DNA of 64,000 nt, from NCBI GenBank assembly GCA_018882885.1, contig VERG01000005.1, positions 1-64,000 of the forward strand, read 5' to 3'. The notes below the pieces were generated by a model, which saw only the letters and a program-made list of their open reading frames with translations, was not told the origin of the DNA and searched no databases. Both the position numbers and the translations under genes were made by a program. The first letter of the stretch is position 1. Each line of letters starts with the position of its first letter. This document shows positions 31,857 through 37,156 of this stretch, piece by piece. Source of the DNA: Candidatus Nanopelagicaceae bacterium. GTDB taxonomy: Bacteria; Actinomycetota; Actinomycetes; Nanopelagicales; Nanopelagicaceae.

Positions 31857-31862
31857 GCGCCC

Positions 31863-31868
31863 AATCTA
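31863..31868 (-). promoter_or_regulatory. -10 box TAGATT, leaderless promoter
   Basis: TAGATT six bases before ATG 31856. Confidence 0.55.
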
Positions 31869-31872
31869 CAGG

Positions 31873-31878
31873 TATTCT
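31873..31878 (+). promoter_or_regulatory. -10 box TATTCT, leaderless promoter
   Basis: TATTCT seven bases before ATG 31886. It is four bases from the opposite-facing box at 31863-31868, so both genes use a 29-base intergenic region. Confidence 0.55.
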
Positions 31879-31885
31879 CGCGCTC

Positions 31886-32737
31886 ATGATTTCGCCCTAC
31901 ATCGCACTTATGAAATTGCGTGTTGTAGAGCTGTTATTGGTCACAACTTTGCCAGCACTTTTTTTGGCCGCAGATGGAGTGCCACCGCTTGATATAACAC
32001 TGGCAACTCTAATCGGCGGAACTTTAGCGGCAGGTGCTGCAAATGCATTTAACATGGTGATTGAAAGCGATATTGATCAACTAATGAATCGCACATCCAA
32101 GCGACCTATCGTTAACAATCAAATCTCTGAGAACCAAGCCCTTGGATTTGCTACCGCTATAACAATTATCTCCCTGGTTATTTTTTGGTTTTTTACTAAT
32201 CCATTGGCAACCGGATTAACAGTAGGCGCAATCGCCTTTTATGTCTTTGGCTACACAGTTGGATTAAAACGTCGCACTTCACAAAACATTGTTTGGGGCG
32301 GAATCGCAGGATGTCTCCCAGTTTTGATTGGCTGGGCTGCAGTAACTAATTCATTATCTTGGACCGCATTTTGGTTCTTCATGGTGATCTTCTTCTGGAC
32401 GCCACCACATTTTTGGGCTTTAGCCATCAAATACCGTGATGATTATGAAGCAGCAGGAATTCCGATGTTGCCCGTGGTTGCTCCTATGGCAAAGGTTTCT
32501 CAGCAGATGTGGTTCCACACAATCCTCATGGTTATCACATCATTCTTAACTATTTATAGTGCTGACTTACCTAGCTGGGTGTGGTTAGCAAACGCATTAA
32601 TCGCAGGCCTATTTGTTTACCAGGTGATGGGTTTAAATAAAGGAAGTATCGACAAGAGTGCTGGAAAGATATTCCACGGCTCTATTACATATTTGAGCCT
32701 TTATTCTGTGCTGTTAGTCCTCGCCATCTTCATCTGA
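31886..32737 (+). CDS. ctaB: Protoheme IX farnesyltransferase (heme O synthase)
   Basis: A 283-residue UbiA-family prenyltransferase with about nine helices. The first Asp-rich motif appears as NMVIESDIDQLMNRTSKRP, matching the CtaB/CyoE pattern, and FWALAIKYRDDYEAAGIPMLP gives the second conserved region, typical of heme O synthases. It converts heme B to heme O for aa3/bo3-type oxidases encoded elsewhere. The last 24 bases overlap the convergent His-rich gene. Confidence 0.94.
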   Translation: MISPYIALMKLRVVELLLVTTLPALFLAADGVPPLDITLATLIGGTLAAGAANAFNMVIESDIDQLMNRTSKRPIVNNQISENQALGFATAITIISLVIFWFFTNPLATGLTVGAIAFYVFGYTVGLKRRTSQNIVWGGIAGCLPVLIGWAAVTNSLSWTAFWFFMVIFFWTPPHFWALAIKYRDDYEAAGIPMLPVVAPMAKVSQQMWFHTILMVITSFLTIYSADLPSWVWLANALIAGLFVYQVMGLNKGSIDKSAGKIFHGSITYLSLYSVLLVLAIFI

Positions 32738-33013
32738 TTCATGCTCATCATCATGGTCTTCATGATGATCACGCCCTTCATGCTCGCCATCTTCATAATC
32801 ATCGTGATGTTCGCGGCCCTCATGCTCATCAAAGTGAGCAGGTTCATTGCCTTCATCATCGAAATCTCTAATGTGGGGCTTAGCGACAGGGGTATATGTA
32901 GCTTCAGGGGTGACAACAACCTCTCCCTGCTCTTTACCAATTGCGGGCGGCTTTATCGCAAGAAAACCAATTAAGAGTAGAGATGGAACTATAAATACCA
33001 ATTTGTTTTTCAT
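32714..33013 (-). CDS. Small secreted or anchored His/Asp/Glu-rich protein
   Basis: A 99-residue protein with an N-terminal hydrophobic helix (about residues 4-22), a short linker, and a C-terminal half (residues 48-99) almost wholly Asp, Glu, His and Gly in repeats such as HEGREHHDDYEDGEHEGRDHHED. No Cys and no known domain. The tail should bind divalent metals such as Fe, Cu, Zn or Ni. Its ATG directly follows the TAA of the FMN-binding gene, so translation is probably coupled. The overlap with ctaB and compositional bias are odd, but the operon position supports a real gene. Confidence 0.72.
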   Translation of the reverse strand: MKNKLVFIVPSLLLIGFLAIKPPAIGKEQGEVVVTPEATYTPVAKPHIRDFDDEGNEPAHFDEHEGREHHDDYEDGEHEGRDHHEDHDDEHESDEDGED

Positions 33014-33607
33014 TTATAAACCCGCCTTCTGCAGGGCTGATGCTAGTGAGTTTCTAAATCCCATAGAGGTGTATGTGGCACCGCTAATTCCAGAGATGTT
33101 GGCGGATTGAACCTTAAGCACCTCTTGCTGCAGCCAGGGAATAACTTGATTAGAGATCTTGAGAGATTTTCTATCGCCATTTGGATACTGCAATGTAGTT
33201 ACATCGGTAATTTTTCCATCTGCAATAGTGACTTGAACCTGTACTGGACCCCAACGAGTAACGGCGGTTTCTCCAGCAAAGGTTCCGCTAGACGAAGCAG
33301 TGGTCTTTGAAGTTTCAGTTTTGCTCGCAGCCGGAGTTGGTTGGGTGGTCGCCTCAGCCGCAGGCTTTGATGTAATTGCCTTGTCGGTGCTGGGCTTGGA
33401 AGCATTTTTGACTTTGGAATTTACGGGAGAGGGTGAATTATCGGGAGTTACTTGTTGTGCAGAAGGTGAATTTGCAGGAGTGGCCTCTGGAAGCGGTTCT
33501 GTGTTGCTGGAAGCTATCGAGCTGTTGAGTTGCGGTGGGTTGTAGCTTAAAACTCCGACCACTCCAGCAACTGTGCCGGTGATTAGAAACGCGGTTTTAC
33601 GTATCAA
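33014..33607 (-). CDS. FMN-binding domain protein, covalent flavin carrier
   Basis: A 197-residue membrane-anchored protein: N-terminal helix (about 5-22), a Ser/Thr/Pro/Ala-rich linker (25-110), and an FMN_bind domain. The flavinylation motif is SGATYTS (residues 175-181); by homology to NqrC/RnfG-type proteins FMN would be linked to T180 by ApbE. The Asp usually three residues before the motif is Ser here. The linker suggests the domain swings outside the membrane between partners. Neighbours encode ApbE and a flavocytochrome. Confidence 0.86.
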   Translation of the reverse strand: MIRKTAFLITGTVAGVVGVLSYNPPQLNSSIASSNTEPLPEATPANSPSAQQVTPDNSPSPVNSKVKNASKPSTDKAITSKPAAEATTQPTPAASKTETSKTTASSSGTFAGETAVTRWGPVQVQVTIADGKITDVTTLQYPNGDRKSLKISNQVIPWLQQEVLKVQSANISGISGATYTSMGFRNSLASALQKAGL

Positions 33608-33618
33608 CTGACCTCTCC

Positions 33619-34998
33619 CTACTGTGCGTGATACAAAAAGGCCTCGTGGTGTACACGATCTTTTGGTATCCCTGCTGATTTACATGCTGAGACAACATCA
33701 TCGATGAGTCCTTGCGGACCACATACGTAGACATCGGAATCGGCAAACCTAGGTACATATTTCTTCAAAGAAAACTCATTGATTGGGTGCTCAACTCTGC
33801 TTCCAACCAAGTAGTGAATCTTCACATTTCGTCGCTGCGTCAATTCATCTAACTCTGCTTTCAAAACTAGGTCATCATGGTTTCGCGCCCGATAAACGAC
33901 ATCAATACTTGTGGAATCTGGAATTTCATCGATGATGGCTCTTAACGGTGTGATTCCAACGCCACCGCCAATTAAAGTGGCATGTTTGAATTGGCGTGCC
34001 ATATCCCGGGTGAAAATTCCATATGGTCCTTCAATTACAACTCGAGTGCCAATCTTTATATTTACGAAATCTTTTGAGGAATCACCCAAAGCTTTAACTG
34101 TGAAACGTAGTTCGTTATTGGTTGGAGCGGCACTGAGCGAGAAAGGATGTGATTCATGCCAACGGTCTTTACTAAGGAAGCGCCAGTTAAAGAACTGTCC
34201 ACCTTGAGCATTTAGTTTGGAGATGTTTTTACCTGATACATAGATGGAAACAACACCAGGCCCTTCGACCTCAACCTTTGAAATAACAAGTTGGTGTCTG
34301 ATGGAGCGAGCTACCGGAATAATGATGCGCCAAGTAACAATTGAAAATACGACTGAGAGATAAAGACCAATCCAGTAAGCGCGATTTAGTGGATGTCCAA
34401 TGAACATTCCACCGGTAAGAATCTGATGCATAAAGGAGAGTGCCACACCAAGGTAGGTGTAAAGATGAATAACCCACCAAGTTTCATACTTAATCGAGTT
34501 TCTTACATTTTTGTAAGAGGTGATGCCGGCCAAGATCAAAAGTAGAAAACCGACCGCCGCCGGAAGCATCCAAGGGTAAGTTGTGGTCATCAACCAAAGT
34601 TCATAACCAATTACTTCACCTTCAGCGCCCGCATACCCCAAACCAACTAGCAATACATGAAAAGTGATCATGTAGAGCGCATACGGCATAGCTTTTCTAT
34701 GCCAGACCACTAAGCGATCATGACCAAGAGCATTTTCAATCCAGGGAATTCGTGCGATTAAAAGTAATCCAATTATCGAAAGATATGAGCCGGTTAAAGC
34801 GAAAAATCGAGAAATCGTGGTGATAATGGCGTAGAGATCGGCGAAATCTCCCGAAGTTAAAGTTGTTATTTGAACTGTGAAGGTAAAACCAAGACCTAAA
34901 CCGGTGAAGAGAAAGGCTTGATCGCCAATCAACTTTTTACGAATCGCCTTCACTTCGGAACTCTGACATTTATATATGTGTGAAGGCTGAGAGACCAC
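33619..34998 (-). CDS. Ferric reductase-like transmembrane flavocytochrome
   Basis: A 459-residue protein. Residues about 25-225 hold six helices of the ferric reductase-like domain with paired His (for example WHRKAM, MITFHVLL, WVIHLYTY, FMHQIL) expected to bind two hemes. The cytosolic part has an FAD site (SHPFSLSAAP) and an NAD(P)-binding domain (IGGGVGITPLRAI and YVCGPQGLIDDV). It should carry electrons from NAD(P)H across the membrane. GTG at 34998 lies 16 bases after the ApbE stop; a GTG at 34953 is an alternative start. Confidence 0.88.
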   Translation of the reverse strand: MVSQPSHIYKCQSSEVKAIRKKLIGDQAFLFTGLGLGFTFTVQITTLTSGDFADLYAIITTISRFFALTGSYLSIIGLLLIARIPWIENALGHDRLVVWHRKAMPYALYMITFHVLLVGLGYAGAEGEVIGYELWLMTTTYPWMLPAAVGFLLLILAGITSYKNVRNSIKYETWWVIHLYTYLGVALSFMHQILTGGMFIGHPLNRAYWIGLYLSVVFSIVTWRIIIPVARSIRHQLVISKVEVEGPGVVSIYVSGKNISKLNAQGGQFFNWRFLSKDRWHESHPFSLSAAPTNNELRFTVKALGDSSKDFVNIKIGTRVVIEGPYGIFTRDMARQFKHATLIGGGVGITPLRAIIDEIPDSTSIDVVYRARNHDDLVLKAELDELTQRRNVKIHYLVGSRVEHPINEFSLKKYVPRFADSDVYVCGPQGLIDDVVSACKSAGIPKDRVHHEAFLYHAQ

Positions 34999-35014
34999 TG
35001 AGCGTCACATCCGA

Positions 35015-35776
35015 TTATTGCTGCTGGTAAGACCACGCACCATCTCCACTCTTATCTACCGCCCAGAAGCTGTAATTTCTAAAGGCTTCATCTCCCATCC
35101 AATTCACGGAGTCTCTACCATCTACAACGAGCGCTGTTGCAAGTGCATCAGCAACCCCAGCATCTGGACCGACCACTGTGGCCGCCCTGGCACCTACCGC
35201 GGGAACTCCAACTCGCGGATCGATTATGTGTGCACCACGTTCATATGTACCGCTTGAAGCGATTGCGCCATCAAATAACTCGTAGGTTTTGGCTATCTGG
35301 TCTCTGAAATCAGGATGCTGAACTCCAACTAACCAAGGTGTTGTTGAATCAACACCACCTCGCACCACAACATCGCCACCAGCGTTAATTTGAATATGTT
35401 CGATTCCTTGTTCAGTGAAGAAACGCAGAGACTCTTGAGCCGCCCAACCTTTTACAAATCCAGATGGATCAAAGCCACCTGGAACCGCCCAGGGATCAAA
35501 GGCTCGCTGAGTTAGCTCACGCAATTCAAGGCATTTATTCCAGACCATTTTCACATTTGACGAGGCATCTGTGATTGCTAACTCATTACGTCGTAAACGT
35601 GCTACCTCTGAGTCAATTAGATAGGTAGAAAAACTTCTATTGATCAATTCATAAAATTGTTGTGCGGAATCACTGGCGGTCTTGAAGCGGGCTTCAGTCG
35701 TCGAAACATCCGGCACTTGAAGGCTGATTACCGTGCCCCATATTTCTATATTTCTAATCAGCATCACACCGCCCAC
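35015..35776 (-). CDS. apbE: FAD:protein FMN transferase
   Basis: A 253-residue ApbE-family enzyme that attaches FMN from FAD to Thr in FMN-binding domains. FDPSGFVKGWA (FAD-binding), INAGGDV and SSGTYERGAHIIDP (metal-binding region) are present. No signal peptide or lipobox, unlike most ApbE proteins, so it may flavinylate its target before export or be anchored by other means. GTG start six bases after TACAAT; ATG 35764 is the alternative. First gene of a four-gene operon. Confidence 0.9.
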   Translation of the reverse strand: MGGVMLIRNIEIWGTVISLQVPDVSTTEARFKTASDSAQQFYELINRSFSTYLIDSEVARLRRNELAITDASSNVKMVWNKCLELRELTQRAFDPWAVPGGFDPSGFVKGWAAQESLRFFTEQGIEHIQINAGGDVVVRGGVDSTTPWLVGVQHPDFRDQIAKTYELFDGAIASSGTYERGAHIIDPRVGVPAVGARAATVVGPDAGVADALATALVVDGRDSVNWMGDEAFRNYSFWAVDKSGDGAWSYQQQ

Positions 35777-35947
35777 TTACAAATTGTAGTTACCTTAAAA
35801 CCTGGAATTTCTTGATGAGATGGCTAAGGCTTGGTTGAAAATCACATCTTCTCCAGCGACACCTGATTGAATTTCAACGGGATTTTCAGGGTGCCCCTTT
35901 ATCCTTTTCATCAGTAACTGACCCCCATTTCCCCAGGGAGCCTAGGA
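35777..35947 (+). other. Leader region of the NlpC/P60 gene with inverted repeats
   Basis: This 171-base region ends with AGGGAG nine bases before ATG 35948. It contains TGAAAATC (35836-35843) and GATTTTCA (35881-35888), and nested CCTGA/TCAGG (35862-35866, 35886-35890), so a folded leader is possible. Actinobacterial wall-hydrolase genes often carry c-di-AMP (ydaO) riboswitches, but I could not recognise that consensus here. Confidence 0.3.
35783..35788 (-). promoter_or_regulatory. -10 box TACAAT, leaderless promoter of the flavin operon
   Basis: TACAAT six bases before GTG 35776. Confidence 0.6.
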
Positions 35948-37156
35948 ATGAGATCAAAGCGAGCTCGCGTATTAGCGCTGAGCCTTTCCTCTTTATTACT
36001 GTTTTCTGCAACTCCGGCAATTGCTGCTAAACCAAAACCAACATTGGCACAGATTGAAGCCGCCAAAAAAGCTGAAGCAGAGAAAAAGAAGTTAGTAGAT
36101 GCCGCTACGGCAAAATTAAATAAAGCCAACTTAACCCTGCGCCAATTAGCAGCGGTAGCAAACGCGGCTCGTATCAAATACGAAGCGGCTAAACGTGAGT
36201 TAGCGATAGCGGTTAAGGAAGCACAGGCCGCGACAGCTGCCTATAACGTTGCGGTTTCTGAGGTTAAAGCGGCGCATGATGCGATTGGCAGATTAGCAAC
36301 CAATGCGTACATCATGGGCGGAGGCTTTACCGATTTAGATTCACTTCTACACTCTGATGGTCCACAAGATTTGATGGATCGACTTTCAACCCTTGATTCT
36401 CTTGGTGCGCAAAATACTCAAGCACTATTTCGATTCAAAGCTGCTGAAGCAGCTGCACAAAAAGCTAAGAAAGCTGCCGATGCTGCCAAAGTTGCGCAAG
36501 AGGTCGCGACCAAGAAGGTAGAAGCCGCCAAAATAGAAGCAGATGCGGCCCGTAACGCGCAGCAAAAAGAGGTTGATAAGTTACAAAAGATTCAAGATCA
36601 AGTACTCAAGGAATTGAATGCAGCGCGCAAAACCCGCGTGACACTTGAGCAACAAAGACAACTTGCTTTATTGGAAGAAACTAATTCTCAGATCGCAAAT
36701 AACACCGCGATCTACACCAAGGTATGGCCAGATATTGGTTTCAAAGGTCGCTCTACCTCACGTTCAACACCTGAGATGCGCGCCAAAGCTGTGGAGTTCG
36801 CGAAGAAACAAGTACAAGCCCGTAAGCCATATATCTGGGGCAGCGAGGGACCAAACTCATTTGATTGTTCTGGCTTGGTTTACGCTGCTTATCGCGCAGC
36901 TGGATTGGGTTGGCCAAACTGGGATCGTCTCAACTCCTCTTTGTACTTTAGCTACACAAAACATGTACCAATAAGTCAATTAGAGCCCGGTGATTTGTTG
37001 TTCTACTCCTACAAAGGAACTGTCAACACAATTCACCACATCACAATTTATGCTGGCAACGGCATGATGTGGGAGGCCAATTCAAAGGGTAAAGGCTTGC
37101 TGTACTCAAACATCTACAGCATTAAGGGACTTATGCCATACGGAGGCCGCGTCTAG
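35948..37156 (+). CDS. Secreted NlpC/P60 peptidoglycan endopeptidase with coiled-coil N-terminus
   Basis: A 402-residue RipA/CwlO-like hydrolase. Signal peptide about 1-26 (cleavage near AIA-AK). Residues about 30-255 are a long Ala/Lys/Glu-rich coiled coil, interrupted near 115-150 by a segment with GRLATNAYIMGGGFTDLDSLL, as in CwlO/RipA regulators of FtsEX-type systems. The C-terminal NlpC/P60 domain (about 275-402) has the catalytic Cys in FDCSGLVYAAYRAAG and His in NTIHHITIYAG. It cleaves peptide stems in the wall. Confidence 0.92.
   Translation: MRSKRARVLALSLSSLLLFSATPAIAAKPKPTLAQIEAAKKAEAEKKKLVDAATAKLNKANLTLRQLAAVANAARIKYEAAKRELAIAVKEAQAATAAYNVAVSEVKAAHDAIGRLATNAYIMGGGFTDLDSLLHSDGPQDLMDRLSTLDSLGAQNTQALFRFKAAEAAAQKAKKAADAAKVAQEVATKKVEAAKIEADAARNAQQKEVDKLQKIQDQVLKELNAARKTRVTLEQQRQLALLEETNSQIANNTAIYTKVWPDIGFKGRSTSRSTPEMRAKAVEFAKKQVQARKPYIWGSEGPNSFDCSGLVYAAYRAAGLGWPNWDRLNSSLYFSYTKHVPISQLEPGDLLFYSYKGTVNTIHHITIYAGNGMMWEANSKGKGLLYSNIYSIKGLMPYGGRV

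Follow-up and report, generated by a model that had tools for sequence, protein, structure and literature searches.

A small acidic protein marks one branch of the MsrQ-like flavinylation systems in freshwater acI-type actinobacteria

The window analysed here is a stretch of 64,000 nucleotides (assembly GCA_018882885.1, contig VERG01000005.1, positions 1 to 64,000 of the forward strand) from a Candidatus Nanopelagicaceae bacterium, a freshwater acI-type actinobacterium with a genome of 1.29 Mb (99.87% complete). On its minus strand lie four frames, separated by gaps of 0-16 bp, which form one module: the FMN transferase ApbE, a flavocytochrome of the NADPH oxidase (NOX)/MsrQ-like type (here FRD), an FMN_bind flavoprotein, and a small acidic protein, which we name SMALL. 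An earlier note, made from the sequence alone, had recognised these four genes; their frames are confirmed, and Pfam backs three of them. The features of the module are as follows.

35783..35788, minus strand: -10-like TACAAT, 6 nt ahead of the GTG at 35776; possible leaderless start
35015..35776, minus strand: ApbE, FAD:protein FMN transferase (PF02424, 1.9e-36); no N-terminal signal sequence visible
33619..34998, minus strand: FRD, MsrQ/NOX-like flavocytochrome with FAD and NAD(P) domains (Pfam, fold match)
34956, minus strand: alternative GTG start of FRD
33014..33607, minus strand: FMN_bind (PF04205, 1.8e-11), TTG start; N-terminal membrane anchor (VLSYNPP), Pro/Ser/Thr-rich linker, FMN-binding domain
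33068..33070, minus strand: codon of the last Thr of SGATYT (Thr180 of FMN_bind), located in the sequence
32714..33013, minus strand: SMALL, 99 aa, membrane-anchored, KPP motif, Asp/Glu/His-rich tail; no Pfam family

The leaderless transcript proposed in the earlier note is plausible. The TACAAT element is mirrored in the aligned locus L037, where TAGAAT stands likewise 6 nt ahead of the GTG; against this, L038 has no -10-like match at its ApbE start and a sigma-70 scan found no promoter at the TACAAT site. A search of the window for known RNAs, riboswitches included, gave nothing above gathering thresholds.

SMALL is a real gene under purifying selection. Comparison of the window with L077, a locus of a close relative, gave 6, 5 and 39 differences at codon positions 1, 2 and 3 and a dN/dS of 0.063 (0.20 for FMN_bind in the same pair), comparison with L079 gave 0.10, and against L080 synonymous sites are saturated, which precludes a ratio. 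Length differences among homologues are whole codons (300, 276, 267 and 279 nt). The codon-position pattern and the dN/dS values rule out a chance frame.

SMALL matched no Pfam family. Its homologues have in common a membrane anchor with KPP at its end, a motif resembling KPxIxGG, and a gene position tightly coupled to FMN_bind. In an alignment of 12 sequences (A3), MK, a hydrophobic segment, Pro22 and a later P-x-I-like motif are common to all, with M1, K2, P22 and P46 invariant; the copy in L078, whose contig stops within the gene (59 aa), was omitted from the alignment and counted as SMALL-bearing. SMALL directly follows FMN_bind in every gene order found, and in 11 of 12 named loci its start lies between -1 and +1 bp of the stop of FMN_bind (14 bp in L087); the distance is 0 bp in the window, where stop and start codons abut as TAAATG. 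An AlphaFold model of low confidence (mean pLDDT 58.9) predicts one helix, residues 5-19, and coil for the rest, which is weak evidence for an anchor followed by a disordered tail. With this helix and no obvious signal-peptidase site in its sequence, the protein is better described as membrane-anchored than as secreted, the term used in the earlier note. A derivation of SMALL from a trimmed FMN_bind paralogue was also considered: the N-termini of the two proteins match below E 0.1 in three of 13 sequences (0.0027, 0.015 and 0.089), which is suggestive for those three, and the window's SMALL (1.4) is not among them.

The co-occurrence search that the earlier note had advised places SMALL beside the FMN_bind/FRD operon in 14 of 296 family genomes, FRD being present in 127. 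These genomes span six genera: g1 (G000, G008, G018, G020, G023), g2 (G157), g4 (G330, G333, G334), g10 (G032), g13 (G059, G341) and g17 (G228, G232). Within the genus, g1 (24 genomes), FMN_bind occurs in five genomes and SMALL in those same five. Gene order is ApbE-FRD-FMN_bind-SMALL in g1 (ApbE is not on the contig in G008) and FRD-FMN_bind-SMALL-ApbE in g2, g10, g13 and g17, with no ApbE after SMALL in g4; in G059 FRD lies beyond the contig and SMALL is flanked by FMN_bind and ApbE. The g10 genome belongs to strain IMCC26077 (locus L145), which the passage on this strain in PMC5301498 assigns to tribe acI-C1.

The SMALL profile as such matches 33 of the 296 family genomes at E <= 0.01. Seven neighbourhoods were inspected for the 19 other matches, and the protein at L222 (G071) has an N-terminus similar to that of SMALL. 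Among 394 genomes of the class, the three strong matches (at least 76 bits) all fall within the family, and the seven weak ones (E 2.5e-5 to 6e-4) have no FRD, FMN_bind or ApbE in the inspected stretch of about 3 kb or less. A match in G102 (E 2.6e-4) was rejected as an unrelated Asp/Arg/His-rich protein. At the level of named loci, SMALL was found in 12 of 74. The remaining 62 comprise 47 with both FMN_bind and ApbE, the gap between which is at most 150 bp in 45 and wider in L103 and L104, seven with FMN_bind and no ApbE, and eight with no clear FMN_bind match; at most of those incomplete loci contig ends leave the absence of SMALL undecided.

Phylogeny places SMALL on one distinct branch of the MsrQ-like system. 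In a maximum-likelihood tree of 70 FRDs (the short sequences L135, L141, L146, L147 and L149 were excluded), all 13 SMALL-bearing members lie on one side of a single branch with support 98/89, a clade recovered in 99% of 200 bootstrap trees. Shuffled distributions required a mean of 12.2 changes, and none of 500 was as low as the observed one; near-copies favour such clustering, the 13 rows nonetheless covering six genera. SMALL was not detected with any of the other 57 FRDs, though not every locus is decidable. Most simply read, this points to a single gain of SMALL, with no loss among the clade members sampled. The earlier note would have abandoned its proposal had homologous operons consistently lacked the small protein, and this is what we find outside the clade and the opposite of what we find within it. 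Four genomes (G232, G330, G333, G334) carry a second FRD on a separate contig, SMALL sitting with the FRD that scores nearer the window's, so that operon types with and without SMALL coexist.

In the same tree, the FRDs of L123, L125, L128, L129 and L133 (G041) and of L112 nest deep among acI sequences, although their records bear the names Streptomyces griseus (CAMCYO01...) and Bifidobacterium breve (CAMDBB01...); these names are probably erroneous. In G041, five FRD copies that closely resemble one another lie on short contigs (about 3-4 kb).

Within the genus the four genes are either present (5 of 24 genomes) or absent as a unit, and the site that they occupy is variable. The site is bordered by two genes.

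31886..32737, plus strand: cyoE, haem O synthase; convergent, 24-bp overlap with the 3' end of SMALL
35948..37156, plus strand: secreted protein that we take to be NlpC/P60-like; directly after cyoE in operon-less relatives

cyoE was found in 20 of the 24 genus genomes. Its 3' neighbour is the SMALL operon in four (G000, G008, G018, G020) and the NlpC-like gene directly in nine (G001, G003, G007, G013, G014, G015, G019, G021, G022); G005 shows the latter arrangement as well, its cyoE being broken, and so does G006, with an additional 400-700 bp or so. In G009 and G016 cyoE is followed by another cassette, made up of a 233-242-aa gene and a response regulator, a 219-aa gene precedes the NlpC-like gene in G017, and contig ends leave the neighbour undecided in G004 and G023. 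Between cyoE and the NlpC-like gene (window 32738-35947; L200, L201, L208), species of the genus carry at least three different inserts.

The first three genes constitute an ordinary actinobacterial MsrQ-like flavinylation system. Where Meheust et al. (2021, eLife, PMC8238504) describe this class, it is defined by a membrane protein with PF01794 that lies no more than five genes from ApbE or FMN_bind, and 1797 such clusters were counted, with broad conservation in Actinobacteria. The operon has PF01794 beside PF04205 and PF02424 and carries the C-terminal NAD-binding domain that is frequent, though not obligatory, in the class. FRD matches Ferric_reduct (PF01794, 1.5e-11), NAD_binding_1 (PF00175, 2.3e-11) and FAD_binding_8 (PF08022, 7.6e-7). 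Its candidate haem ligands, His100/His114 and His178/His191 (459-aa numbering), form pairs spaced by 14 and 13 residues in two helical regions and are invariant in 28 of 28 aligned family FRDs; four invariant histidines with such spacing lead us to expect two b haems, in line with the haem sites of the class. The FMN_bind domain aligns with the solved domain 8p2a (69.8 bits across 87 residues), an 89-residue chain comprising the domain only, without anchor, linker or SMALL. Its sequence contains SGATYT, the last Thr of which (Thr180) is presumably the site of covalent FMN under the rule for the FMN_bind family. ApbE matches known FMN transferases. A hydrophobic N-terminal segment can be read from the sequence of FMN_bind and none from that of ApbE. 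No signal sequence is found at the ApbE starts of the window, L077, L081, L087, L145, L088, L098, L111 and L139, yet the flavinylated partner appears extracytoplasmic. Tandem FMN_bind genes within one operon occur in L043 (7077-7631 and 7655-8548), L067 and L104, indicating that flavoprotein duplication recurs in the family.

The nearest solved relative of FRD by sequence profile is SpNOX, the NADPH oxidase of Streptococcus pneumoniae (8qt6, E 8.2e-21), and an AlphaFold model of FRD (mean pLDDT 79) has its best fold matches in SpNOX 8qt6 and 8qq7 (TM ~0.6). Both proteins fuse a transmembrane haem domain to an FAD/NAD(P) domain, as expected of the NOX fold, which could suggest that the complex generates superoxide or H2O2 in the manner of an NADPH oxidase, or is a reductase facing oxygen or peroxide. 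We consider this very improbable, given that the match is distant (19% identity) and that ApbE and FMN_bind are fixed neighbours of FRD, an arrangement that speaks for onward transfer of electrons to FMN. To our knowledge, SpNOX has no ApbE, FMN_bind or SMALL partner and works without a flavinylated one. The path from NAD(P)H through FAD and haems to FMN that the earlier note had drawn is thus supported for the three core genes by the SpNOX match, the invariant histidines and SGATYT, with cofactors and a direction of flow as the gene families would predict.

We consider it probable, though far from assured, that the operon represents a subtype of the MsrQ-like (NOX-type) flavinylated transmembrane electron-transfer systems with a dedicated fourth subunit, SMALL acting as an accessory for docking or tethering. 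The cytosolic FAD/NAD domain of FRD would oxidise NAD(P)H, two b haems would carry the electrons across the membrane, and these would reach the FMN that ApbE is expected to attach to the FMN_bind protein. SMALL, as a predicted single-pass membrane protein made together with FMN_bind, could be held beside FMN_bind or FRD by the anchor together with the KPP and KPxIxGG-like motifs, and its disordered tail may set the reach of the reduced flavin. An accessory that stays near the flavoprotein is the best-supported role because of the gene coupling, the single clade, the behaviour as a unit and the fact that four genomes hold the plain operon as well. Several observations weigh against this assignment. 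The low-confidence model of SMALL lends no structural support to a contact with FMN_bind or FRD, and only four FRD alignment columns separate the SMALL clade from its SMALL-less relatives, none of them an obvious docking surface, so that a clade-specific surface on FRD was rejected. The linker of FMN_bind does not carry a higher charge in the SMALL clade (mean +2.8 versus +5.1), for which reason a basic linker serving as the dock for an acidic tail was rejected. Furthermore, similar tails occur elsewhere in the family, so a tail of this type is not enough to connect SMALL with electron transfer. FMN_bind linkers are shorter in the SMALL clade (mean 59 versus 85 residues, n=12 versus 51), and one may speculate that SMALL takes over part of their spacing or docking job.

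These look-alike tails belong to another single-pass protein, with KPxI..GGDDE and a tail rich in Asp, Glu and His, which in Planktophila-like genomes stands beside cyoE, with no FRD operon there. The loci are listed below.

L185, 4292-4645, minus strand: look-alike protein
L186, 1116-1478, plus strand: look-alike protein
L188, 3629-4057, minus strand: look-alike protein
L195, 3443-3853, plus strand: look-alike protein
L196, 3176-3655, minus strand: look-alike protein
L197, 2945-3442, plus strand: look-alike protein

A YncE-like propeller gene adjoins the look-alike in L185, L188 and L196, and L187 has such a tail beside other genes; in the window, the gap between yncE and cyoE (31857-31885) leaves no room for a protein of this kind. 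That such tails occur beside cyoE, mostly with a YncE-like gene and without the FRD operon, could mean that SMALL is a passenger, one among several acidic-tailed single-pass proteins of the family, which has an envelope role of its own and travels with the cassette. This we judge improbable, since the SMALLs of the operon share the MK...P anchor and the tight coupling to FMN_bind across six genera, whereas the N-termini of the look-alikes differ, and since SMALL tracks the FRD phylogeny and no sampled member of the clade has lost it.

The earlier note had described SMALL as rich in His, Asp and Glu, which is correct for the window, where the protein past its anchor holds 14 D, 16 E and 10 H at a net charge of about -25. 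It had also taken the protein for a metal-binding terminal partner. On this view the tail would gather Fe(III) or Cu(II) outside the membrane and the covalent FMN would reduce them, serving uptake or detoxification. In support, D, E and H abound in the g1 tail, which purifying selection maintains, and iron reduction is linked to the published class through VIT1 clusters where PMC8238504 discusses them. The histidines, however, number 6-10 past the anchor in the four full-length g1 copies and only one or two in other genera, so that a His-rich tail is a trait of one genus. Net charge and His count vary likewise (L145, -12/2; L087, -2/2; L083, -12/1; L082, -24/1; L081, -6/1), and three of 12 homologous tails, those of L084-L086, are nearly uncharged (net -1 to -3, one or two His). 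The conserved His-rich or acidic tail expected of a metal-binding partner is therefore not found across the homologues, and metal binding as the general function of SMALL was rejected on tail composition.

The proposed coupling to iron uptake was rejected as well, since the operon contains no metal transporter and shows no pattern with FTR1 (1 of 5 operon-bearing versus 6 of 19 operon-less genus genomes) or VIT1 (23 of 24, regardless of the operon). The linkage to VIT1 or FTR1 expected of an iron-assimilation reductase thus appears neither in the operon nor across the 24 genus genomes. FeoB_N matches many GTPases and its hits resemble ordinary ones in length and weak score, which makes it uninformative on iron uptake. 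We regard SMALL as a metal-binding terminal partner as doubtful; at most, the tail compositions would allow metal capture as a local elaboration in g1, where the long Asp/Glu/His tail might in addition keep Fe or Cu close to the flavin, without this being the founding function.

Mms6 of magnetotactic bacteria, a membrane-associated protein with an acidic C-terminus, offers a comparison for such an elaboration. It is small and amphiphilic and is reported to bind ferric iron in the passages on it in PMC7041794 and PMC5082532; the comparison is one of working principle, with no sequence similarity claimed. Mms6 has its role in the formation of magnetite, and metal binding by SMALL is putative.

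The three core genes have been known as a system since 2021, and the new part is SMALL. A term search of the main text of PMC8238504 found no small acidic or His-rich subunit, and the words acidic and metal-binding are absent from the main texts of PMC8238504 and PMC11334425. Open-licence literature on MsrQ-like and ferric reductase flavinylation, acI ferric reductase and Planktophila FMN-binding yielded no SMALL-like partner either. The earlier note was right that the small protein is non-standard with respect to the wider MsrQ-like class, and it can now be linked to one branch of it. Rather unlikely, in our estimate, is a separate class of exporter, in which an anchored disordered tail, co-translated with the flavoprotein, selects or concentrates an extracellular acceptor and serves, in g1, as a polyanionic, His-rich metal antenna for the covalent flavin; if true, it would provide streamlined freshwater bacteria with a route to harvest iron or copper. 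Given that MsrQ-like clusters are common in Actinobacteria and their external acceptors largely unknown, a fourth subunit that follows one FRD branch, in genomes some of which hold the plain operon too, offers a handle on acceptor choice.
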